Shown: in pieces, positions 1,795-63,830 of the stretch
Layout of the letters: the number at the start of each line of letters is the position of its first letter
Numbering within the stretch: position 1 is the stretch's first letter
Source of the DNA: Sphaerolaimus hirsutus
Taxonomy: Eukaryota; Nematoda; Chromadorea; Monhysterida; Sphaerolaimidae
NCBI GenBank assembly: GCA_964036195.1
Contig: OZ038452.1
Location: 20,595,785 to 20,659,784 of the forward strand
DNA length: 64,000 nucleotides
Direction: 5' to 3'
Position numbers and translations under genes: made by a program
The notes under the pieces: generated by a model
What the model was told of the DNA's origin: nothing
The model's database searches: none
The model's input: only the letters and a program-made list of their open reading frames with translations

Positions 1795-2008
1795 CTGTGA
1801 CTAGTTCCGCAAATCGAGAAGTGAGAAGTAAAATGGCAAATGCGAAGTGAAACGAGAAGTGAGATTTGAATTGAGGAGGAAATTGGCAAAAGCGGAGGGA
1901 GATTACTTACTATTATTATTATTTTTTCTTCGCTTTTGCCAATTTTCTTGCCATTTCACTTAGCTTTTGCCATTCTACTTGTCACTTCTCAATTTGCGGA
2001 ACTGGCAC
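1795..2008 (-). mobile_element. INT-2 element forming intron 4 of the acidic gene (introner)
   Basis: The whole 214-base intron is one inverted-repeat element. On the plus strand it starts CTAGTTCCGCAAATCGAGAA and ends with the near-complement TTCTCAATTTGCGGAACTGG; the arms match over about 40 bases. Sense-strand flanks are AACCAGGT at the donor and TCACAGGT at the acceptor, a diverged 8-base duplication, so the AG|GT at each edge is supplied by the target. Splicing between the two AG|GT sites keeps the GRG frame (phase 1 to phase 1). Confidence 0.65.
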
Positions 2009-2537
2009 CTGGTTTCGATGCGCCCTGCCCTTTAGCGAGGCCACGCCCACGGCCTGGTCCGGATGGTTTCTGTTGAGATCCCTCATCTGATCCACTGGAA
2101 GAGGATTCGTTTTGGCCTTCTGTCTCTACTGGTTCTGTGATCGCCGCATCTGTGACTGCAGCCGTAGAATTACTGATCTCGTCTGGGCTGTCAGTTACAC
2201 TTGCTGTTTGGGTTTCATCGTTTTGTGCCTGCGGTCCGAACTTTCTTTTCTGTCCAAATCCGAATCCGAATCCGAAGTGTTCTTTGAAAGCCTTCTCCTT
2301 GTCAAAAGCCTCTGGAAAAGGGATATAGGTAGTCATTTGAAAAGCGGGTACCGTGGTAAAGGTATAGGTAGTATTTATAATCTCTCTTGCTTATTAAAGT
2401 CCTAACAAAATAACATTTCAACATTTTCTTCGGCAATTCGCCAAAATCCATGTGACCTGCGTCGTTTGCTTTCAAATTTTTTCTTCTAACCTTCTGATTC
2501 GCTGGCCCCATTTCGTCCCTGACTCCCAGATTTGGAC

Positions 2538-2753
2538 CAGAGCTGTTAAAAGTACAGAAATATCTTCAAATAAAATGTAAACGTAAAGTATTTACCGTAG
2601 AGCCTATATGAAATACGTTTTCTGTACTCAAGTACTTTAAAAAAGTACGCGTAAAGGTGAGTACAGGTCTTTCAGAGGAAACGTAAACATATCTACGCAG
2701 TACTCGAGTATACGTATTTTTCGAGTAAGCGTAAATGCGTTATAACAGCTGTG
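2538..2753. mobile_element. hAT-A MITE inserted in coding exon 3
   Basis: Termini CAGAGCTGTTAAAAG and its complement, flanked by the perfect 8-base direct repeat ATTTGGAC (2530-2537 and 2754-2761). The body is the TACGTATTT/GTAAACGTAAA sequence shared with the other hAT-A copies. It adds an in-frame TAA three codons into the element on the minus strand. Confidence 0.85.
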
Positions 2754-2867
2754 ATTTGGACTTGTCCTGTCCTCTACCCAGGCCACGTCCTGGTTTCGAC
2801 TTGTCCTGTCCTCTACCCAGGCCACGTCCTGGTTTCGACTTGTCCTGTCCTTTAGCGAGGCCACGGC

Positions 2868-3046
2868 CTGGGGCCAGTTCCGGAAGCGGATAAGTGAAAG
2901 AGCAGACGGCAAAAGCTAAATGAAATGGCAAGTCAGGTTAAAAAACAAATGTGTCATTTCACTTATCATTTTCCTTTTGCCAATTTACTTGCCATTTCAC
3001 TTTTTTGCCATTTGCGCTTTCACTTCTCCACTCGCGGAACGGGCAC
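2868..3046 (-). mobile_element. INT-2 element forming intron 2 of the acidic gene (introner)
   Basis: A 179-base intron whose two ends (GCCAGTTCCGGAAGCGGATA and the complement of GCCCGTTCCGCGAGTGGAGA) are the termini of the same family as 1795-2008. Sense-strand edges are AACCAGGT and CCCCAGGC, sharing CCAGG. Donor CCAG|GTGCCC and acceptor CCCCAG|GCC join in phase. Confidence 0.6.
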
Positions 3047-3512
3047 CTGGTTTCGATTTGCCGGATTTTGATTTCTCATCTGATCCACTGGAGGAAGTTT
3101 CGTTTTGGCCTTCCGTCCCTTCTGGTGTTTCAATTGTCGCAGTTACGGCATCTGAGACTTCAGCCGTGGAATCTGCCGCCGGGGCTTCTGTGATCTCTGC
3201 AGCGGCAGTGGTGATTTCTTCTGGGGCTTCTGTGATCTCTGCAGCGGCAGTAGTGATCTGGTCTGCAGCCTCTGTGATTTCTACAGCCAAAGTAGTAATC
3301 TCTTCCGGGGCATCTGTTACCACAGGTTCTGGCGCTTTTGGTTCCACGCTCTTGAATGTTCCGTATGGTTGTTGACCTGTGTTTGTGAAATTTTTTTTTT
3401 TGTAAAAGGTTACTTTGGCCATGCACAGTAGGAGACTGTTTAAATTTGACAAACATATAAATCTATTTTGAACATATTTTAGTTCACCAGATGGATCACT
3501 TTTGGCTGCCAT

Positions 3513-4634
3513 CAACAGTAGTTGACATACTCCTCATTCTGGTGAACTCAAATGTCTTCAAAACAGATTTAACAGAAAAGTTTTTTAAATTTTATTTGTT
3601 TTTGGTGCACCGCGATTGATACCTGTTGGTGTGAAATACAATTCACGCTATTCACCTTGAACAGACACTATACTCGCAATGAGAAAGAGCAGCGCAGATT
3701 GTTTGCAGTCCATTTTCATGTTTGACTTCACAGGAATATGCAAATGATGAGATTTGGATTTTCTTTTATACTCTGACAGTATGGCTTAGAACGATTTCCC
3801 TGCGAACAGACACGCTGTTAATATGTCTTTATTACGTTTTTGACAGATTTTCCCTTGAACATGTGCTTTCTGTGTGGGCAGATACTGTATATACGATATT
3901 TGACCCCCCCCCCTTGAATAGGTCTGTCCAGTTAGGCGATTGGAGAAAATCTTGTCTATATTTATAATCTGTGCATACGTATCCCCAAATAAAAAGCCCA
4001 GAGTAATTACCCAGAGAAATATTTGAGGGCTTATGGTAATTTATGCCATTTGAAAATGCACAGCCACATCTTCAGACATCATTTCATTCACGTTTATTAT
4101 AAATTATGAATTTTAATTTGTATACAATTTCAGCTGAACACTGGTTGCACAAGCTGACGCTCAGGTTCCATCATTTAGGTTTCTTCTGGAAAAACAGTGA
4201 CGTAAAAACAGTTAATATCGTAGTTATTTCAAACAACTTTAAATATGAAAATGATTTTCTGGGTAATTTGATAAAAAATTCAATTTTTCGATATTTACCG
4301 GAAGTTTTTCCACCACCACCTGACCATCTTTCACCGTTGCCCTTCATCTGTTTGCCTTAGAAAAAATTACAGGATGTCTATTTTACCCTCAAATATTCAC
4401 GACGATATTTTTTGTTGTAAATCCCCGCCCTTCACAATGCTCACGGCATTTTTTGCCTGGTTCAGTGAATGTGAACCGGTGAATCTAAACGGCAATGTGA
4501 ACGGGTGCAGTAGCAATTGGATAAACAATCACGGTTGCCATTTTGGGATGTCGGAATGGTTTACTGCCTCATTACCGTGGAATTTGGTGCAGGAAATCGG
4601 GCCGCAATTTAAGTGTACCATTTGGGATGCGGTG
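3513..4634. other. Intergenic, no gene recognised
   Basis: A cysteine-containing open frame (4374-4646, plus) has no splice context and no recognisable motif, so I do not annotate it. The rest is AT-rich single-copy-looking DNA. Confidence 0.4.
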
Positions 4635-9886: not shown

Positions 9887-10797
9887 CTTAGTCCGACTGA
9901 AAAGTCCCCGGGCAGTGCTCTGCATTCGCGCTAGGGGTAAGCTACGGTAATAAAATTTTGACAGGTTAAGATATCAGGTGTTTTGAGTTTTCACATAAAA
10001 TTTTACCCCTCTAGCTCCACCCACTGCGGAACTGTGGGGGTTACAATTTCGGTCATTTTGTACTGATGTACACATGGTGCTCTAGCCCAATGCTGCTTTA
10101 AGTTGTTATTATGAAACTTTGGCTAGTGTAAGCCACCAGTGTTGGCAATGTGCTGATAGTATTCAACACTTTCATCATTGCTATTAAGGTAAAATTAATA
10201 TGCAGATCAGGGTGATGTGCAAGTCCATATTGTCATTCCTGTCACTACTCTCACTACCAAATTCATCATTCTGCCTCTCCTTCTCAAAATAGCCCCCCCC
10301 CTTGGAGTCTATGCACCTCTGCCACCTGACTACCACTTCCTCCATGATCCTCCATGAGCTTCTGCTTTACTGCACATTTCAAAACAACATTAAAATCACT
10401 GCAATACAACATGATCTCAGATGATCACCAAAAACATCGATCACATCCATCCACCACGTTCCTTGCACATCAACCTGATCTGCATATTAATTTTACCTTA
10501 ATAGCAATGATTTAAATGAAAGTGTTGAATACTATCAGCACATTGACAACACTGGTGGCTTACACTAGCCAAAGTTTCATGATCACAACGTACAGCAGCA
10601 TTGGGCTAGAGCACCATGTGTACATCAGTACAAAATGACTGAAATTGTAATCCCCACAGTTCCGCATTGGGTGGAGCTAGAGGGGTAAAATTTTAGGCGA
10701 AAACTCAAAACACCTGATATCTTAACCTGTCAAAATTTTATGACCGTAGCTTACCCCTAGCGCGAATGGTGAGCATTGCCCGGGGAGCCGGACTAAG
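9887..10797. mobile_element. Fold-back element derived from a mariner transposon
   Basis: Two inverted arms of about 335 bases (9887-10222 and 10463-10797) begin and end CTTAGTCCGACT / AGCCGGACTAAG, with TA on both sides. The arms are well matched apart from scattered changes. The terminal word with GAAAAGTCCCCGGGC resembles mariner-type inverted repeats. The 240-base spacer carries a transposase-like remnant (see 10210-10365). Confidence 0.75.
10210..10365 (-). pseudogene. Remnant C-terminus of a mariner-type transposase
   Basis: The minus strand encodes about 50 residues including EEVVVRWQRCIDSKGGYFEK, then an acidic stretch and a stop. The RWQ.CI....G.YFEK pattern is typical of the last residues of mariner-family transposases. 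Upstream frames are closed, so only the tail remains. Confidence 0.55.
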
Positions 10798-31080: not shown

Positions 31081-31270
31081 GGGGTGTGGGCCGTTCCCAG
31101 CAGCAGTGCAGCGCTGGGCCAACCCGCGGCAGGGCACAGCGAGCTGTGGCTCCACGCCTTGGTCCCAAAAATCGACTAATCTCAGTGCAACCAATAGGTT
31201 GCATATCAGAGATTAAGCTGATAAGAACAGATACTACACTTTGATCTTAGCCAAAAGGCCGAGAAGCGAT
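31081..31270 (-). ncRNA. U2 spliceosomal RNA
   Basis: The minus strand begins ATCGCTTCTCGGCCTTTTGG and continues with the conserved GATCAAAGTGTAGTATCTG, which holds the GTAGTA branch-point recognition sequence. It is followed by CTTATCAGCTTAATCTCTGA and the Sm-binding site GATTTTTGG. The 3' half has the expected stem-loops (GGCCCAGCGCTGCACTGCTG) and ends near GGAACGGCCCACACCCC. Length of about 190 bases is normal for U2. U2 pairs with the intron branch point in the major spliceosome. The 'AAAG' in the branch-point loop region is the form seen in Drosophila and nematodes rather than vertebrates. Looks intact, so likely a gene rather than a pseudogene; the promoter element was not identified. 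Confidence 0.93.
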
Positions 31271-38454: not shown

Positions 38455-40979
38455 ATGGACGAATACAGTAGAGAACCATGGTGAGTGATCGTCATTAACG
38501 TTATTTTTTATTGGGTCTACTTCTGTAATTTTCTGCCTTGCATCCGATGCGGGGTGCCTTGCTATGGCACTTTGCCAAGCACGTGATAAAAGTGAATCGC
38601 GTGGATGACACCGAATTTTAACAAAGTTAGGGCTCTGTACACTGCATTTCATAAATTTTTCCTCAGCCCGATGCGTATTTTCGATGATATGGGCGGCGCT
38701 TTTTCGATGGGCGCAATCGGAGGCGCCATTTTCCATTCAATATCGGGTTACAGGAATGCGGCTGCCGGGCAAAGAATGCGCGGTGTCATGCAGGTGCGTT
38801 CATTTTTATGTAGGGCAATGGCAGCCGCGGGTGGTCGGGCTGTATGGGAGAGTGCGCTGGATGCCACGCCGAGATCAATAGACGAAAGTATTTGTAATTC
38901 ATTTTCACGTAAATTATGTACCACTGATCATGCTGTCCTGTGGCAAAGTATTGGTAGTTATTTTTGACACAATCTGCACCAGTGTAAATATCTGCGGAAC
39001 GTCATTGATGATTACACTCATTTATTTTCTAGTATATATATGCCAAATCCGCTGTAGATGTCACACTTTGGAATAAAGCTCTCCTCTTGCAGTAAGTTAC
39101 AAGAGAATATACGATACGTGAATGACTGCAGAACGTGCGTCTGCGGGCGCCGATCACGGGCGGCCAGTTCGCCGCGTGGGGCGGCATGTTCAGCGCGATC
39201 GACTGCTCGCTCGTGTGGGCCAGACAGAAGGAGGACCACTGGAACGCGATCATGGCCGGCGGAATGACGGGCGCGCTGCTCACCGTCCGCTCCGGCCCCA
39301 CCACCATGCTCGTGTCCGGCTGCGTGGGCGCCGTGCTGCTCGGCCTGATCGAGGGCGTCGGCGTGCTCATGACCAGGGTCACCGCGTCACAGTTTGATCC
39401 GAGTCGGTACTGGTTTTCTCTTTTGTTATTTTTGTCTATTACAAGCAATTTCGGTACTTTATCGATGACCCGGATTTTGTTTAGCAATGTACAGTGTGAG
39501 TCAATTCTGTAAATCATTTTCATTTTTGTTTGAATCCCTATGCATAAATATGTATTTATTTCTCGGCACTGTGCCGAGTAAGTATCAGGGGTCTCGAATG
39601 GGGGGGGTTGGGGGGGTTACCCCCCCCCCAAAACCGCCCAGCTATCTATCTATCCCGGAGGCCGCTCAGCTATCTATCTATCCCGGGGGCAAAATTTTGG
39701 GCTACTACCCCCTGAACCCCCCCCCCCCCAAATCGCCCAGCTTTCTACCTATCTGGAGCGATTTTTCAGAAACTATACCCCAATTTTCACTTAAAATCGC
39801 TATTTTTCATACCTATATATAGATTTTCACCTCCAAAATCACTAGTTCATGCATCTAACTGCCTATTTTCAGCTATAATGGCGCTACGCACACTGAAGCC
39901 GAAATATTCGGCATACACACGTTTTCATCTGCCGAATCCGAATTGAAAAATTGCCGTTCGGACGTTTTAAATTCGGCATTTTAGGGGCTGCCATATTGAA
40001 TTTTGAAAACGTGCGCACGATATTCGGACGAATTCGGACGAATTTGAGCGTTATCAGCATTCAACATTTCATCTGATTTTGCCGAATGGTTTCAGCATGA
40101 AAAAGTGTACGCATCTTTTGCAAAGCTGAAATACATGCTGAATTGACAAACCGCCTAATTTTCAAGAGTACGGACGATTTGAGTTCAGCAAGTTTTTTTC
40201 TATTCAGCATTTAATTCAGCATTTGTCAAAAACGTGCGTATGCCGAATATTTCGGCTTCAGTGTGCGTAGCGCCTTTAAGTACTATATGCTCTTGTATAC
40301 CCATTTTGAGCTATTTTACACCTATTTTTAGCGATTTTTCTCCCTTTTCTTCCATCTATGCCCGAAAAAGCCTATATATCGAACCACCACAACCCCCCCC
40401 AAACCCCCCCCCCAACCCCCCTCCCCCCAGAAAATTTTTCAGCTATCTATCCCTCCGGAGGAGCGATTTGCTATCTATCCAACCACTCGGAGAGTCAAAA
40501 TTCAAGATACCCCTGGTAAGTATCTAACAGTAACTTCCCGAGTTTGTATACTGAGCCTTCATGACGGTTATCTATCTGGGGGCAGTCCCAGACCCTGTGT
40601 CAAAACTCATGCAAATGTACGTTAAACCATTTTACCAGGCATTTTACATGACATTTGACACTGCATCACATATGACATTTTACAGGGCCTTTGACATGGT
40701 CTGGGACTGGCACCAGGGGTCTGCAATGTCCCCCGCGATGGTCAAAATCCTGAATACTCCTTATCTTTCTGCCAAATTCAGGATCGTGATTCCGTCTGAA
40801 CACCGTGTCCATGCATCACATTTACTTTCCTTGTCGCAGCGGCCGTGCAAGGCTTGGAAGACCCGAGCGCGCTGCCAGCCAAACAGCCATCAACATCATC
40901 TGGAGGGGGCGGAGCTTTCGGTGCGACCGAATCGACGCCATTCGGTTTAGGCGGCACTCCTAACGTCAACTTGCACTGA
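38455..40979 (+). CDS. TIMM17: Mitochondrial import inner membrane translocase subunit Tim17
   Basis: Four plus-strand exons: 38455-38480, 38667-38793, 39132-39402, 40840-40979, totalling 564 bases (187 aa plus stop), all in phase. The protein starts MDEYSREPC, then FDDMGGAFSMGAIGGAIFHS, LRAPITGGQFAAWGGMFSAI, MAGGMTGALLTVRSG and LLGLIEGVGVLM. These are the four glycine-rich membrane segments of the Tim17/22/23 family. Cys9 and Cys76 match the conserved cysteine pair that forms a disulfide in Tim17. Tim17 is a core part of the TIM23 complex, importing presequence proteins into the matrix. The C-terminal tail after LEDPSALPAKQ is Gly/Ser-rich. The exon 3 donor (CCGA|GTCGGT) is weak but is the only one that keeps frame. 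Intron 3 holds nested transposons and an INT-1 copy. Confidence 0.95.
39586..40515. mobile_element. hAT-D element in Tim17 intron 3, perfect 8-bp duplication
   Basis: Starts CAGGGGTCTCGAATGGGGGG and ends TTCAAGATACCCCTG. GTAAGTAT on both sides (39578-39585, 40516-40523). The central M-1 insertion accounts for nearly half its length. Confidence 0.9.
39880..40274. mobile_element. M-1 element nested in the hAT-D element
   Basis: Starts GGCGCTACGCACACTGAAGC and ends with the complement GCTTCAGTGTGCGTAGCGCC approximately. About 120-base arms with GCCGAATATTTCGGC words. Comparing the interrupted and intact hAT-D copies shows the insertion point in CAGCT...TTTAGTACTAT. Confidence 0.75.
40574..40716. 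mobile_element. INT-1 element in Tim17 intron 3
   Basis: Starts GGGGGCAGTCCCAGACCCTG and ends GGTCTGGGACTGGCACCAGG. Internal CATTTTACATGACATTTGAC. Does not reach the splice sites. Confidence 0.65.
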
Positions 40980-48100: not shown

Positions 48101-51100
48101 ACGTTCAAGTTTGAACGGATGATTTTCGCTCAGTTCATGGTCTATATTACTTTTGTGCGACAATGTGATGTGAGAACAAGACGTTTTTGCATTTTCGGCT
48201 CAACGGCAAAGTTTCAAATCGAACCGTGATGTTAGATACATACGCGGAAAAGTGCCAAAACACGTATGTATCCTAAACCCACAAGCGGATAGAGATGTGT
48301 AAACGAAAACCTAATCATTGCGAAACGCGCGAAATGACGCTCGTTTAAACGAAACATGAACTCTTTAAACATTATAAACGTAAGATAAATCAATTGTTAT
48401 TTTATTTCTAGGTCTATCGGGAACATTGAATTAATTTCGTTTCCCTCGTATTGCGAAATAATTTGTGCACAGCTATGTTTGGCAAAGTGCCCATTCAGTT
48501 AACGCTACGGTTGTTACGTATTCTTTTAGAACATTGTATGCCATCATGTCCGCCGAGTTTAAAAAATTCTTTTGTGCTTATCGTTGCACGCTGCATTGCA
48601 TTGCATTCGATGAATTAAACCATGGCTGTTTTGGTCTGTCTGGTCTTATCGAATGTTTTTTACGTGACACGATGCTATTGCGGCATCGATCATGGGGGGT
48701 TATTCGGGGGGGGGGGGAGTTATTTTTTCCTTTCCTTTTCCTTTCCTTTTTCCGTTAGTTTTAACGAGATTTTTTCAATGCTAACTGTAATGTCTTAAAT
48801 ATTTTTCGGTGAGTCACGCTCGAAATTGACTTTTTAAAATTAAAAAACCACTCATGAACTCGCCAAGGGCCATTGAGAAGTCCTTATAGACGGTGCCGAC
48901 TTGCGTGTAGAACAGTGAGGCTGCGCGCGCAAAGTCGCGCACATGGCCCACTAGCTGCCGGCTGAGCTCAGCTCGTGCTGCGGCGATAGCTTCGCGCTGC
49001 ACTTCGCCAGCGGTATCGTCTGCTTCCTGTTCGTCATTTTCCGGCTGCGCTTCCACTTTTTCCGCCACCTCTGAGAAATCGGATTTACATTTACAATACT
49101 CATGTTTTTGTACGTATTTGTCAAAATGTATTACCGTATTATCTCGAATTACCCCCCTTGAATTAACCCCCCCTCAAATTGGGCTGGGGAAATAATCATA
49201 GTTGTTAAAACGTATTTACGTTTACACGATAATTACGGATACTCGAGTACTGCGTAAATACGTTTACGTTTCCTCGCGAAAAATACCGGTACCCACTTAC
49301 TCGCGTACAATTTGAAAGTACGCTAGTACAGAAAACGTATTTTTAGGGGACAGAAAATGTCATTTTGCCAAACAGAAAGTGACAAACATAAGACATTTTC
49401 ATAAGAAATACTTAGCATGAGAGAAAAACACATGTTTTTGGATATCAGAGTCAAAATTCGAAAAATACTGACTTTTTCTGAAAAAAGATCAACTTTTACG
49501 TTTTCTGCGAGAAAAAATACCCATTTTTACGTTTTCTCCAGAAAAAAATCTCGTTTTTACGTTTTATCTGAAAAAAGTATTTTACTTAGGTTTTACGCAG
49601 TGTAAAAGTATTTTTCAAACACTATACGTTTTCTGTACTCGGGGGTGAGTAAAAGAAAAATACTTTACGTTTACGTTTACTTTGAAAAAATTCCAGTACT
49701 TTTAACAACTCTGGAAATAATAACCCCCCCCCCCCTTCGAAATACCCCCCGGAATGATGTTCAACCTTAATGCAATGTACATGATGTATTTAATACTGCT
49801 AATTTGCATTGCAGTTACACATAGACTACCGTATTACCTCGAATTATCCCCCCTCGAATTAACCCCCCCCCCCCACCTGTTTTGGGTTTTGGCAAATGCC
49901 TACTTTTTACTACGATCCTTACGAAAATTTCTGACGAAATAATAAAACCCCCCTCAAATTAACCCCCCTAAAATTTTGCTGGCGAAATAATAAACCCCCA
50001 TGGTGGTATTTCGAGGTAATACGGTAGTTGGTGTAGCTATCTATGTCCAAATATGTCCTGTTTGGACACATTTATTACCTGTTTTGGGTACGCAAATGCC
50101 TACTTTTTACTACGATCCTTACGAAAAGTTCTGAGGCAAAAATAAAAAACCCTCGAATTACCCCCGCTCAAATTTTGCTGGCGAAATAATAAACCCACAG
50201 GTGGGGTATTTCGAGGTAATACGGTAATATCTTTCAGATTTGATATGTTGTCGCAGCATATTGGTTCCGGTGGTCATGGAGATCATTAGTGGATCTCTAT
50301 TTTTTATAGCATTGTAATATTGGTTTAAACTTCGGCAAAGAGGCCGCGGCTTCAATTGCGCCTAGTTTGAAGTGTTTTGGCTTTTCATTTCAAAAGCAAT
50401 CGGCATCGTTGACGAATTGTTGTGCTGACGTATCTACATCAATAATATGAGAATCGGTAAATATTACCACATGGTGCTTGAGATAGGAAACATTGAAGAG
50501 GTGCCAAGATATCTATGACGTGTTGGCTCAGTTGAATGTGGAGTTGAGTATTCAAGTGTCCTCAGTCTATCGTCACATCCTACAATGCCATTTTTATCCA
50601 CGCCCACTGTTCAGTTCACTGGCTGTCACACGTTCATCCATCAAACTATCAGTCACTATCGTGACACGCTCATTCATCAAACTATAATCCTATAATATTC
50701 ACTATCGTGACACGACAGTTCCATTCATCAGTGGCAACGTAAAACACGCCAGGGTCAAACGTCTCCGCTGTTAAATACAGTCTGTCGGCATGACGACGTC
50801 ACCCAATGGGCGGCTGTAAAATTCGCCCCCTCCCCAAAGCAAGCGCGTCTCTCCATAAAACCAACCATTAGCACTGGCGCACTTTTGTGATATTTCTCCG
50901 ACGGCTTTTGCCAGCGCGGCCACCTGCGGCACTACCAGACCCTGTAAAGTGCCCTGTAAAAATGTAAATGTCATGCGATTGACAAAAGTAATGTAAAATG
51001 CCCTGTAAATGGCAAACGTATTATTTTTGCGGATTTTTAACACTTTTCACGACATTCAAAATTTACAGGTTCTTTCACATGACATTTTACATGGCTTTTA

Positions 51101-52381
51101 CCTGAATTTTGACACTTTGCATAACATTTGACATTTCACAGTGTCTTTTACCTGACATTTGCAATTTGCCAGACCATTTTACATTACTTTTCACACTTTG
51201 CATGACATTTGACACTTTCCAGGACAATTCACAGTGTCCGGGAGTGGCCACCTGCTTAGCGTAGTCGTTGTACAGAGCCGTGACTCGCTCCTCAGCGTCG
51301 GCCAAGGCGCACAGGGCCGCCGAGTCGTCCAACGCCTCGGCCGCCGTGGACAGGTAGTCCGGTTGCGCCTGTACACAAGCTGATTTCAGTAGTTAGGTCA
51401 AGCGAGAGATGCATGCTTTCGTGGTTTTTGCATACCGTATTTCCTCGAAATACCCCCACCCCTCAAAATCGACACTATGAAATAATTACCCACCCCCTCG
51501 AAATACCACCCCCCCCCCCCACAATTGAGTGTACAGAGAACGTACATAACAAAACTGCGGTTTGTGATTCGGGCATTGCAAAACACACGTTAAAAACAAT
51601 GAATTGTTACGTTAGAACAATGTTACACACTTATATAAGTCAATAGAGTCTTATATGTATATAGCGGTTATTGTTGCATTTTTCTACGTCTGCGTATTAT
51701 TGTTGCATTTTTCTACGTCTGCGTACGTTACAGACGACAATTTATTACTGGAAGTTCAAAAAAATTCTGGCGAAATAATAAGCCCCCTCTCGAAATACCC
51801 CCCTCGTTAAACCCCCCCCCTCAAAATTCTCACTTTGAAACAATCACCCCCCGGGGGTATTTCGAGGAAGTACGGTACCTAGGTTTGTGCGACGACTTTC
51901 TGTTGAAGTCAGATTCACGTGACCAGCTTTGTGTAGCGCTATGAGATTAGATGAGGCAATTGGCCAAAAACGTATAATATTATACCCATGTTAAGTGTGT
52001 ACTTATTTATATGGATTGTTTCTACCAAATTTGTAAAAATATACTGTATTTTTGGAATACCTGATAGTAGATGTATTAGTTAATGTATAGATAATTTTGA
52101 GTATTTATTCTAAAACATAAAATATTATCAGAATTCTAGGCAAAATGTAAACGTCAGCTTTTTGTCATATCATTATTACTTTTCTCTGGTTTCTGGGTAA
52201 TGGTATTTTCGAAAAACATCAATAAACGGAAACGGAAACATAAGTATACCTACCTAAGTACATTTTACGCAAATACGATCTCACGAACCCTGGGATTCTA
52301 CAAACGGACCTTGAGCTCACTTTGTAGGCGTGACTCGAGCGTCTGCGCCAGCTGCGCTTGTGAACCACTGTCTTCTGCCAT
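42138..52381 (-). CDS. BAR-like coiled-coil protein with Lys/Ala/Pro-rich tail (324 aa)
   Basis: Seven minus-strand exons: 52310-52381, 51252-51368, 50866-50923, 48849-49070, 47361-47527, 45446-45556, 42138-42365. They total 975 bases, and every intron phase agrees (0,0,1,1,0,0). It starts MAEDSGSQAQLAQTLESRLQ. Helical part: DDSAALCALADAEERVTALY, VAALAKAVGEISQKC, then AARAELSRQLVGHVRDFARA and TVYKDFSMALGEFM. The spacing and residues resemble the C-terminal BAR domain of sorting nexins (SNX1/2/7-type), but there is no PX domain and the helical part is short. That assignment is inference. The last three exons encode a tail of Lys/Pro/Ala repeats with the motif KAPEALGGAPP four times. Intron 2 is an INT-1 introner. 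Introns 4-6 hold large hAT-A and TA-1 elements, so the gene spans over 10 kb. Confidence 0.8.
43248..43850. repeat. Degenerate GGAAAACGGAAA repeat, TGTCAACAAAAACG end
   Basis: The left end TAGGCTGTCAACAAAAACG resembles the hAT-E terminus. The body is purine-rich GGAAAATG/GGAAACGG repeats. A TA-1 element (43608-43697) is inserted near the middle. Confidence 0.5.
43939..44383. mobile_element. hAT-E element, (TTTTCCGTTTTC)n body, perfect 8-bp duplication
   Basis: Starts TAGGGTGTCAACTTTCCG and ends AAGTTTTTGTTGACACCCTA. GTTTTACC on both sides (43931-43938, 44384-44391). The body is the pyrimidine strand of the repeat at 43248-43850. Confidence 0.85.
44390..45445. other. Intron DNA of the BAR-like gene
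   Basis: A TA-1 fragment at about 44452-44526 (ends GGTATTTCTAGGTAATACGG). The rest is AT-rich with no exon. Confidence 0.4.
46018..47185. mobile_element. hAT-A composite: one copy nested in another
   Basis: Outer ends CAGAGTTGTTCAAAGTAC and GTTTTAACAACTATG; flanks GGTTATAA and GATTATAA agree at 7 of 8. An inner copy spans about 46509-47000 (AGTTGTTAAAACG to CTTTTAACAACTA). Confidence 0.75.
47600..48848. other. Intron DNA of the BAR-like gene
   Basis: Contains a degraded TA-1 piece (about 47755-47850) and a G12 tract at 48700. No exon. Confidence 0.4.
49135..50224. mobile_element. TA-1 cluster with inserted hAT-A
   Basis: TA-1 ends at 49135 (CCGTATTATCTCGAATTACC), 49828 (CCGTATTACCTCGAATTATC), 50023 and 50224 (TTCGAGGTAATACGG). 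Two or three elements overlap or are nested. The hAT-A copy 49197-49713 is inserted within. Confidence 0.6.
49197..49713. mobile_element. hAT-A MITE with perfect 8-bp duplication, inside TA-1
   Basis: Starts CATAGTTGTTAAAACG, ends CTTTTAACAACTCTG. GAAATAAT on both sides (49189-49196, 49714-49721). Confidence 0.88.
50924..51251 (-). mobile_element. INT-1 element forming intron 2 of the BAR-like gene (introner)
   Basis: The intron is essentially one inverted-repeat element: plus-strand left tip GGCACTACCAGACCCTGTAA, right tip complement CACTCCCGGACACTGTGAA. GCCACCTGC occurs on both sides (50917-50925 and 51248-51256 approximately), a perfect 9-base repeat. On the sense strand this is GCAGGTGGC, so both donor (AAGCAG|GTGGCC) and acceptor (CCGCAG|GTGGCC) come from the duplicated target. 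Removing it restores one continuous exon in phase 0. Confidence 0.85.
51435..51875. mobile_element. TA-1 inverted-repeat element
   Basis: Starts CCGTATTTCCTCGAAATACC and ends TATTTCGAGGAAGTACGG, TA on both sides. Shares a long central sequence, inverted, with 54908-55319. Confidence 0.8.
51876..52309. other. Intron 1 DNA of the BAR-like gene, nothing recognised
   Basis: AT-rich, no exon. Confidence 0.4.
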
Positions 52382-57766: not shown

Positions 57767-58864
57767 ATGGCTAAGGCGGCTACTAAAATATCAGCGCTAT
57801 GTCTAGCATGGCTATACGGCGTAATCGTGCTCAGCGAGGCCTTTGTCATACCAGAACACAACTTTCAGGTGTTTCTGGCGCAACAGAGAGGTGAGTATGC
57901 CCACCTGGGGGCAGTCCCAAGCCCTGTAAAGTGTAAAGTAAAGTGTCAAATGTAAAGTCAAATGCAAAGTAAAGTGTCAATCAAAACAAAAAAGAAAAGA
58001 TTTTATTACTGAACTTTGCATGACAATTGACAGTTTACTTTGCATTTGACTTTACATTTGACACTTTACTTTACACTTTACAGGGCTTGGGATTGCCACC
58101 AGGGGCAGTCCCAGACCCTGTAAAATGTCAAATGTCATGCAATGTGTCAGAAGTCACGAAAAATGCCCTGCAAAATGGCAACCACGTTGCCATTTTCAGG
58201 GCATTTTACGTGACTTTTAACACTTTGCATGACTTGTGACATTTTACAGGGTCCGGGACTAGCACCTGGGGGCAGTCCCGCAACATGTAATGTGTCAAGT
58301 GGGATGTGAAATGTCAATTAGATTTAAAAAATACTATTTAATGACATTTCGCATCACGTTTGACAAAATGGTATGACATTTTACACTTTACAGAGGTGCG
58401 GGACTGCCTCCTGGGTCAACAGGATACCAGTGGGTGACAATGTCTGCAATTTCACAAAATTCAGTCACTTAGTGGCAGGCTCAATCCTGTCCACGACGCT
58501 AGAACAACGAGCCAATGCCTCATCAATCTATGCCATGCGCAGAAAAATCTCCAAACGGTCGGTTAACGCCAGAAATGCTGGCTCCATTGGGCGCCGACGC
58601 GGCACGGCGCTACATGGCCCTGGTGCGGCGCTACCACCTGCTGCGACACAAAGCCCACCAGGTGCCACCCACTCCCAGACCCTGTAAAATGCACTGTAAA
58701 ACGTCATGTAAATTGTAAAAAGTCATGTAAAATGCTTGGAAAGTGGCAAACCAACACTGCATAACATTTGACAGGGCATTTTACAGGGTCTGTGAGTGCC
58801 CCAGGTCAGAGTGCTCTACGGCAATAAAATGGACAACATGGCAGTGGAATTGACGCCTGTGTGA
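57767..58864 (+). CDS. Small protein with N-terminal signal peptide; family uncertain
   Basis: Plus-strand exons: 57767-57890 (donor AGAG|GTGAGT), 58543-58661, 58805-58864, phases 1 and 0. The protein opens MAKAATKISALCLAWLYGVI then VLSEAF, a typical signal peptide or single anchor. Exon 2 gives LTPEMLAPLGADAARRYMAL then VRRYHLLRHKAHQ. Exon 3 gives VRVLYGNKMDN and stops at 58862-58864; a strong donor (CCTGT|GT GAGT) just before the stop means it may continue instead. The helix A.DAARRYMALVRRYHLL loosely recalls the amphipathic helix of neuropeptide Y/F precursors, and YG is in a plausible place. However, there is no RPRFG/RYG amidation site with a dibasic cleavage, so I do not claim it. The exon 2 acceptor (GCGCAG|AA) was chosen for phase. 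Intron 2 is an INT-1 introner; intron 1 holds three more INT-1 copies. Confidence 0.5.
57896..58415. mobile_element. Three tandem INT-1 elements in intron 1
   Basis: Three inverted-repeat units lie end to end: about 57903-58093, 58102-58254, 58263-58407. At the four borders stand CCACCTGG, CCACCAGG, CACCTGGG and CTCCTGGG. These are copies of one 8-base target, as expected if each element inserted at the same preferred site. Each unit reads CAGTCCCAGACCCTGTAAA to TTTACAGGGTCCGGGACT with internal CATTTGACTTTAC words. Confidence 0.75.
58662..58804 (+). mobile_element. INT-1 element forming intron 2 (introner)
   Basis: The 143-base intron is one element: CCACTCCCAGACCCTGTAAA to TTTACAGGGTCTGTGAGTG. 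Flanks CACCAGGT (donor side) and CCCCAGGT (acceptor side) agree at 7 of 8. Donor CACCAG|GT and acceptor CCCCAG|GT both come from the duplicated target. Joining keeps the frame in phase 0. Confidence 0.8.
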
Positions 58865-59460: not shown

Positions 59461-59469
59461 TTATAATCC

Positions 59470-59650
59470 AGGGGTTACTCCCAGACCTTGTAAAATGCCA
59501 TGTAAACATGGCATGCAAAGCGTCAAAAGTCTTGTAAAATGTCATGAAAAATGTCGAATCACTGACGTGTACACTTTTTTGAAAGAATTTTTCCATTTTT
59601 CATGACTTTTGACACCACATGACAGTTGAAATTTTACAGGGTCAAGGGGG
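59470..59650. mobile_element. INT-1 element, intergenic
   Basis: Starts GGGGTTACTCCCAGACCTTG and ends AATTTTACAGGGTCAAGGGG, with TTGACACCACATGACAG words. Confidence 0.6.
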
Positions 59651-59718
59651 TCACGAGACCACTTTTTCATGCAGTTTAATATTTGGACACGGGAATGGTG
59701 GGCAGTTGTAAGAGCATT

Positions 59719-62776: not shown

Positions 62777-62914
62777 CTGGGGCGAAGTTAAGTCGCACAA
62801 AGTTACTCCTGCGAGACGACAGACATGCAGTTACATCCAGGGTCGTTTTTCGACAGGTTTAATATCTGTTCGTTTTAATTTTGAACAAGGGTCGGCGGGT
62901 AACTACACTGTTCT

Positions 62915-63830
62915 TGGGCCACACAAAGAAACTGTCAAAAGTTATGTAAAAATGCCCTGGAAAATGTCATGAAATATGTCAAATGTCCAGAATTTTTTTT
63001 GCATTCTACATGGCATTTTTCATGACTTTAGACACTTTGCATGACTTTTGACATTTTACAGGGCATTTTACATCTGTTATTTTACAGGGTCTGAGATAGT
63101 GTTGGCACTTGATTTTTTTAAACTGATTTTTTTTAATCTGATTTTTTTTTATCAAAGGGAACTGATTTGAAATTAAAAAAATGGAAAGGCTAAATTGCTG
63201 GTGGAGTTGCACTAGGTATTTTGCAATTTTTTTTGCGCGCAAGTGCGCGATTTCTCAGACACATTACCATTGGTGGTGTTTTCATAGGTTTTGGGGCATT
63301 TTTAGTGTAAAAGCTTCCATTTATTCATGTTACCATGTAACAATAAGCTGTGATATGCCAGTGTAGTATATAATATCCAGCCAATATTCTCCAACATACT
63401 TTTAGTGTGTAACATCACTGTCAATGTATTAGCTTTCTCTTACAACTTTATTTGATCACTATTCCATGCTGAATTTCACTTGAAGTCAGGATTGTTCGAC
63501 AAAAAGCGATATAATTACATAATAAGTCGACATAAAATGGATATTTTTGAAAGAAATCTGTGCTTATAATGATATCCCACGACTCCAGTCATAATAATAC
63601 CACAATAGTCATAACAATACATTATGTCTGACACTTAACATACACATATTTTCTTCTATACCCCTATTTTGGACGATTTAAAAAAAACTGATTTTAATTT
63701 TTTTTAATCAAAAAAACTAAAATTGATGTTTTTAAATCGAGGCGTTTAAAAAAATTAATTTTTTTAAATCAAGGCGTTAAAAAAAAGATTTTTTTCCAAC
63801 CCTAGTCTGAGAGTGGCATCAGGTAGTGAT
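62915..63830. mobile_element. INT-1 element interrupted by hAT-C
   Basis: Left arm CACAAAGAAACTGTCAAAAG with CCCTGGAAAATGTCATG; right arm CATTTTACAGGGCATTTTAC and TTTTACAGGGTCTGAGA. It is cut by the hAT-C element at 63097-63804 and ends GTCTGAGAGTGGCATCAGG. Confidence 0.6.
63097..63804. mobile_element. hAT-C element with perfect 8-bp duplication
   Basis: Starts TAGTGTTGGCACTTGATTTT and ends TTTTTTTCCAACCCTA. GTCTGAGA on both sides (63089-63096, 63805-63812). Arms are TTTTTTTAATCTGA and complement. Confidence 0.9.

Follow-up and report, generated by a model that had tools for sequence, protein, structure and literature searches.

Transposons with terminal inverted repeats (TIRs) that enter exons can act as whole introns at unrelated positions, as described for introners by Gozashti et al. 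2022 (PMC9860276). Some of the families described there carry one splice site and borrow the other from the target duplication, with the Chrysochromulina family carrying the 5′ site, and animal introners appear in that account as rare, being attributed to two animal groups, copepods among them. A second described system, NuwaI of the PHIS (PIF/Harbinger) superfamily, is characterized in a 2015 survey (PMC4482050) by a CWG target duplication (W, A or T), by tips usually starting with GGG and by an occurrence in animals only. Here, we describe intron A, the second intron of a minus-strand gene within a 64,000-nucleotide (nt) stretch of the Sphaerolaimus hirsutus genome, the whole of which is referred to as the window. 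Intron A is very probably one member of a large family of short DNA transposons that makes introns.

Judged by its anatomy, the family is an introner of a new variety. One repeated element fills each of four introns of the window (A, B, C, and P) from edge to edge, and similar introns are found at unrelated positions, with eight insertion sites in seven genes and 7,505 genome matches to the core of the terminal repeat. Insertion into an uninterrupted exon is indicated by unsplit copies of the target motif in gene P, together with the continuity of protein domains and reading frame across the insertion sites. The closest of the types described in 2022 is the one in which the donor is carried and the acceptor is borrowed (PMC9860276). 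Compared with the introners of that account, the duplication here is CWG and the target determines the acceptor base W, so that either AG or TG would result.

Intron A and its element family

The host gene of intron A was modeled on the minus strand, partly by eye and partly with a codon model for which 12 other, unrelated loci of this genome served as the training set. Exon 1 (52310–52381, by eye) extends from an ATG at 52381 to AAG|GTCCGT, exon 2 (51252–51368, by eye and codon model) ends with ...GCTAAGCAG at 51252, and exon 3 (50866–50923, codon model, with the 3′ end set by eye) starts with GTGGCCGCG at 50923. Intron A (50924–51251, 328 nt) consists of the entire element followed by the downstream copy of the target duplication, CAG, as its last 3 nt. 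This copy (50924–50926) would serve as the acceptor, and the upstream CAG copy (51252–51254) is the final codon of exon 2. The first bases of the intron are GTGGCC, the last are GCCGCAG, and CAG|GTGGCC stands at either edge. The sequence-only reading of this stretch had taken the intron to be a single transposon in phase 0, and both points held. The intron folds end to end as one inverted-repeat element (−123 kcal/mol; z −8.9; 0 of 100 shuffles as good) with tips matching those of the family, and the codon model places both flanks in a common sense frame in phase 0 (joint codon score 10.0, compared with −4.9 for the next best frame).

The edges of intron A carry a perfect 10-bp direct repeat, GGCCACCTGC, at 50918–50927 and 51246–51255, one base longer than first described. 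It is composed of CAG, one G before it, and GTGGCC, which is common to the element tip and the downstream exon, and owing to this shared GTGGCC the repeat had appeared 9 bp long. The family as a whole lacks an extension past the CAG core; for copy A alone a duplication longer than CWG is conceivable. The related proposal that the target duplication made both splice sites stands for the acceptor CAG but not for the donor, as the GT belongs to the element's own tip, GTGCC, which recurs across the family while the flanking sequence varies.

The size of the family was estimated from a 19-base core of the terminal repeat, CASTCCCRGACCCTGTAAA, which matched the 348-Mb assembly exactly 3,784 + 3,721 times, compared with 0 + 0 for the reversed control. 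Copies were sampled from seven query-similar loci (L002–L008), from stretches around places among the first 100 listed core matches, all of them on contig C1, and from the window. This sampling gave 88 candidate pairs of ends, including a few out of register. The ends were legible in 57 of these, and an orientation could be assigned to 53; the median copy length was 189 nt. The two ends of the element differ, with a 5′ tip of GTGCCASTCCCAGACCCTGTAAA and a 3′ tip of TTTACAGGGTCTGGGASTGCCCC. Read inward, the two end types are GTGC-CASTCCC and GGGG-CASTCCC (S, C or G), and 43 of the 88 candidate pairs have one of each. Genome-wide, 1,912 exact GTGC-type ends with CWG in front (1,046 CAG and 866 CTG) are accompanied by a similar number of exact GGGG-type ends (1,799, with 1,083 CAG and 716 CTG). 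With its two end types, the element thus has a direction.

CWG adjoins both ends of the element, and W agrees across the two sides in 34 of the 53 oriented copies, against an expected fraction of 0.35 (P 1.5e-5). The C and G beside W hardly vary in these copies, so their own duplication is not separable. In the columns outside CWG, the two sides match only at expectation, which caps the target duplication at 3 bp, in agreement with CWG. The element is a short, apparently nonautonomous DNA transposon.

The proposed assignment to a hAT-like miniature inverted-repeat transposable element received no support from this comparison. The 5- to 8-bp duplication of such an element was not seen, no column outside CWG rising above expectation. 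A hAT terminus of CAG plus 8 bp was also considered and dropped, a flush 8-bp duplication being absent from the window copies (by eye) and from the 53-copy analysis. Instead, the CWG duplication, of which the W agreement is the sign, and the GGG tip are features described for NuwaI (PMC4482050) and point to that group, on the PIF/Harbinger side of PHIS. Read inward, the TIR starts with GGGGCAGTCCC at the 3′ end, which provides the GGG, and with GTGCCAGTCCC at the 5′ end, which has GTG. The elements thus differ from NuwaI as surveyed in being short and in having GTG instead of GGG at one tip. We found no autonomous partner bearing these tips, for which a DDE transposase together with Myb/SANT would be expected, the viral contigs searched for the element tip gave 0 matches, and a limited literature search found no PIF/Harbinger introner.

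The genome contains at least 163 matches to the transposase domain DDE_Tnp_4 (150 of 306 candidates scored). In many of those listed, 147 profile positions are spread over about 633 nt that include four TGA codons (for example, G000:C15:4528842-4529474). Such a span would suit a transposase gene interrupted by roughly 190 nt of inserted sequence, a length to be compared with the 189-nt median of the element copies.

Placement in exons and conserved domains

To describe the placement of the copies, a coding score was computed over 75 bases on each side, with a threshold of 5 or more. In the first sample, 19 of 50 oriented, nonredundant copies were coding-like, compared with 358 of 4,000 random positions (Fisher P 3e-8) and with 37 of 241 CCWGG sites in 10-kb loci (Fisher P 6e-4). 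Eighteen of these 19 copies were oriented in the sense of the gene (P 8e-5). Where each of the two flanks scored on its own, 15 of 19 pairs fell on one strand, and the frame agreed in 14 of the 15 after exact removal. A second sample of 40 copies was selected by exact 5′ tip (20 CTG and 20 CAG), and 36 were kept after one copy with a poor 3′ end and three near-duplicates were dropped. Here, 14 of 36 reached the threshold, 11 sense and 3 antisense. Pooled with the leave-one-out count of the first sample (17 of 50, 16 sense), this gave 31 of 86, 27 sense and 4 antisense, with phase 0 in 21 of the 27 sense cases. The antisense calls of the codon model were L061, L075, L079, and L086, and for L086 Pfam contradicts the call and places the element in sense. 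Two further candidates for antisense exonic insertion were unconvincing, as the GDT1 domain of L103 is confined to one side of the join and L083 has no Pfam match.

Pfam domains give a view of the same junctions through the encoded protein. In peptides from 27 loci, an above-cut-off domain spans the exact join in eight, all with the element in sense, representing eight insertion sites in seven genes. With CAG/CAG as the two copies of the duplication, these are TSP_1 (L005), Cation_ATPase_C (L104), and Oscp1 (L057); with CTG/CAG, they are CHGN (L069) and Cyclin_N (L085). The remaining three have CTG/CTG and are Oscp1 (L056, 1.6e-16), Xan_ur_permease of the nucleobase-permease family (L086, 4.7e-17), and 7TM_GPCR_Srx of an Srx-like receptor (L082, 1.2e-6). 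At L032, leucine-rich repeats lie on either side of the join, and the remaining 18 of the 27 loci had no Pfam match spanning the join or present on both its sides. L056 and L057 belong to one OSCP1 gene on contig C1 (3593.1–3591.6 kb), in which two elements, one CTG and one CAG, lie about 0.8 kb apart, with predicted exact joins at YDL^MTMA (TG) and EQRL^RAQN (AG), respectively; with both removed, the Oscp1 domain is matched at 2.4e-40 over profile positions 1–89. Of the names OSCP1, cyclin Y, SIRT6-like, and Patched-like first given to host genes, Pfam bears out OSCP1 and a cyclin only.

These features suggest how an insertion could become an intron at once. The element would insert at a CCWGG-like site and duplicate CWG. 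In a copy lying in an exon in sense orientation, the first two bases of the element, the GT of GTGCC, would form the donor directly after the upstream CWG, and the duplicated downstream CWG would form the acceptor, supplying AG when W is A. Exact removal of the element with one CWG would then give back the original coding sequence. The hairpin may draw the two ends together, and a change of the tip on one side from GGGG to GTGC may have given the element its direction. The introner-type gain proposed for intron A in the sequence-only reading is supported by anatomy, copy number, the duplicated W, sense bias, and the restoration of frame and domains.

Related introns and other features of the window

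Three further introns of the window, B, C, and P, share the anatomy of intron A. Intron B (58662–58804, plus strand) reads CAG|GTGCCACCC...GTGCCCCAG|GTC at its borders and has a joint codon score of 10.9 versus 0.8. It interrupts a small gene with a signal-peptide-like start, whose exons were placed by eye at 57767–57890, 58543–58661, and 58805–58864 on the plus strand. By eye, we take gene B (57767–58864) to be presumably NPY/NPF-precursor-like; Pfam gave no match. Intron C (1795–2008, minus strand) lies in phase 1 (KPG^RGLGRG) in a repeat-rich gene, and intron P (2868–3046, minus strand) lies in its tandem paralogue. This tandem pair of paralogues occupies the region 1795–3533 (minus strand); the genes contain TEGQNESSSSGSDE- and KPGRGLGRG-type stretches, and the motif at which the element-intron stands is shared. 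As their upstream flanks are alike by eye, introns C and P are probably one ancient insertion.

Gene P offers a comparison internal to one gene, as it encodes KSKPGRGLGRGQD-type repeats. Exact splicing of the interrupted repeat would give KSKPG^RGLAKGQD, and the target motif, AAACCAGGACGTGGCCTGGGT, occurs twice more without interruption, starting at 2835 and 2796 (2776–2835, minus strand). The unsplit DNA in these two repeats, which follow the interrupted one, provides internal equivalents of the empty site for gene P.

The window holds other copies of the family as well. Members D1–D3 (57905–58410, right end of D3 by eye) lie in intron 1 of gene B and are arranged head to tail with CCWGG-like junctions, as if each had entered the target site of its predecessor. 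Member E (40578–40716) has, by eye, no exon directly at either edge, and member F (59468–59655, right end by eye) is degraded and apparently intergenic. At 62890–63830, a family member carries, close to its right end, an insertion that is AT-rich and has TCTGAGA-like repeats around it (by eye). In all, 16 end matches to the family tips (6 or fewer mismatches in 21) were counted in the window, whereas five resamplings from a first-order Markov model gave 3, 0, 1, 1, and 0.

The window also contains a complete U2 spliceosomal RNA gene (31081–31270, minus strand, 155 bits), its sole Rfam match at the gathering score. A large inverted repeat at 9905–10786, with 271-nt arms that are 95% complementary and 340 nt between them, is perhaps another transposon. 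Elsewhere in the assembly, COX1 on contig C762 contains 14 TGA codons, a use of TGA known from the mitochondrial codes of animals and of certain other groups. Together with domains such as CHGN and Srx, this COX1 is consistent with an animal genome.

The acceptor base, competing explanations, and meaning

Several observations weigh against the reading of the family as introners. Removal of the copies by the spliceosome is something we infer from genomic sequence alone, and the base pairing of the donor GTGCC with U1 is poor beyond position +3. The sampled copies all lie within the first 10.7 Mb of contig C1, except for L002–L008 and the window, and the peptides scanned with Pfam came from loci picked by eye as coding-looking. 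Some of the loci used to train the codon model were also tested in the count of 19 of 50; with leave-one-out training, 17 of the 50 first-sample copies reach the threshold, 16 of them sense. Introns A and B have the backing of the codon model; C and P, with their repeat-rich flanks and repetitive protein, do not. For the host gene of intron A, no significant homologue was found in Pfam (best E 0.016, below the cut-off), in PDB sequences, or in a protein search, and for this reason the earlier name "BAR-like" was not adopted. Many family copies lie outside exons, which indicates that spread does not require being a spliced intron. Finally, CTG stands as the downstream copy of the duplication in 11 of the 27 exon-like copies in sense orientation, and splicing of these would violate the GT-AG rule.

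Among the other explanations of the introns as a whole, it is highly improbable that older, ordinary introns were later filled by a transposon that came to reach their edges. Members D1–D3 do lie within the ordinary intron 1 of gene B, but introns A, B, C, and P are each taken up by the element from edge to edge, the frame is kept in 14 of the 15 same-strand pairs after removal of the element with one CWG, and neither the unsplit copies of the same motif in gene P nor the sense bias of 18 in 19 is expected of later filling. We also consider it very unlikely that the introns are real but took both splice sites from a 9- to 10-bp, hAT-like target duplication; copy A is bordered by a perfect 10-bp repeat, as such an event would leave, yet across the oriented copies the columns beyond CWG match only at expectation and the GT tip is recurrent where the flanks are variable. 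Equally little credence is given to removal without the spliceosome, whether guided by the hairpin, for which the euglenid nonconventional introns with variable borders and a structure joining their ends are a described case (PMC4770533), or carried out on DNA, as with the eliminated sequences of ciliates. The strong terminal hairpin and an AG that is apparently dispensable would suit such removal; excision by hairpin or at the DNA level should, however, be blind to orientation, and 18 of 19 exon-like copies are in sense with GT at the 5′ edge. Because of this sense bias, DNA-level excision of the CTG copies in particular is rated low.

The question of the acceptor concerns the CTG copies, as introns A, B, C, and P all have an acceptor AG. 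CTG copies within conserved domains would be either spliced GT-TG introns or unspliced damage. We tentatively hold, with confidence a little short of even, that a large share of the family's introns end in TG and are spliced as GT-TG in the main form, with AG preferred and not required. In the consensus element, TTTACAG stands 19 nt upstream of WG; this AG may serve in the first step of splicing and the TG, exposed by the hairpin, as the acceptor of the second. In the folded copy L056, the AG of TTTACAG is within the stem and the last seven bases, CCCCCUG, are outside it, an arrangement consistent with such a two-step model. The TG acceptors of human genes described by Szafranski et al. 2007 (PMC2374985) are similar in having an AG nearby, within 28 nt there and 19 nt upstream here, and that study proposes that AG is needed early and TG is selected later. 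The human sites are reported there only as an alternative beside AG, never alone, whereas TG would be the main site here. In Fritillaria borealis, fewer than 10% of introns are reported to obey GT/AG, U2AF genes are duplicated, and the U2 spliceosome accepts unusual ends; introner transposons with weak splice sites are discussed there as a possible source of the divergent sites (PMC13326754). Both animals would thus have unusual intron ends, with the difference that here GT is kept and the acceptor alone varies, if the CTG copies are spliced.

Somewhat less probable, and still a serious contender, is the view that the CAG copies alone are introns and that the exonic CTG copies go unspliced, either being harmful insertions of recent date or belonging to gene copies that are dead. 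The restriction of the reported human TG sites to alternatives beside AG (PMC2374985) favors this view, as does the enrichment of AG on the acceptor side, where W is A in 60.2% of ends compared with 54.7% on the donor side (P 7e-4). In the second sample, a donor CTG is combined with an acceptor CAG in 5 of 20 copies and the reverse combination occurs in 1 of 20, which also fits. In GC-rich settings of the first sample, however, CTG is as common as CAG (10 of 25 each; 8 of 51 copies without CWG within reach at the 3′ end were left out of this count), and CTG and CAG copies are similarly diverged, with a median identity to the end consensus of 0.86 (n = 13) and 0.87 (n = 19), respectively, six loci being assigned by homology. 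Sense CTG copies also lie inside the intact conserved domains of OSCP1, Xan_ur_permease, and Srx. We judge it improbable that the CTG copies are instead spliced at GT-AG sites inside the element, with a remnant kept in the mRNA. The tips do hold CCCT|GTAAAA and TTTACAG|GG, but the main internal GT-AG pairs within 60 nt of either end of the consensus shift the frame, only the donors at +44 and +56 keeping it with 63 to 87 nt left behind, and the Oscp1 domain fits exact removal.

The origin of introns and the near-universal AG at their ends are old questions that this family addresses. Its copies suggest that an intron can arise fully formed by insertion, with the element's own tip and a three-letter target duplication as the ends, and they widen the range of known intron sources by an animal genome and a CWG-type, NuwaI-like DNA transposon. 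The family also provides paired natural tests, in which the same kind of element with the same tip lies in conserved genes with either an AG or a TG acceptor, the OSCP1 gene having one of each. Should the GT-TG reading be true, the target duplication alone would decide whether a newly made intron conforms to GT-AG. If the TG copies are spliced, the AG rule would be a preference that selection tightens later, as the shift in A from the donor to the acceptor side suggests.

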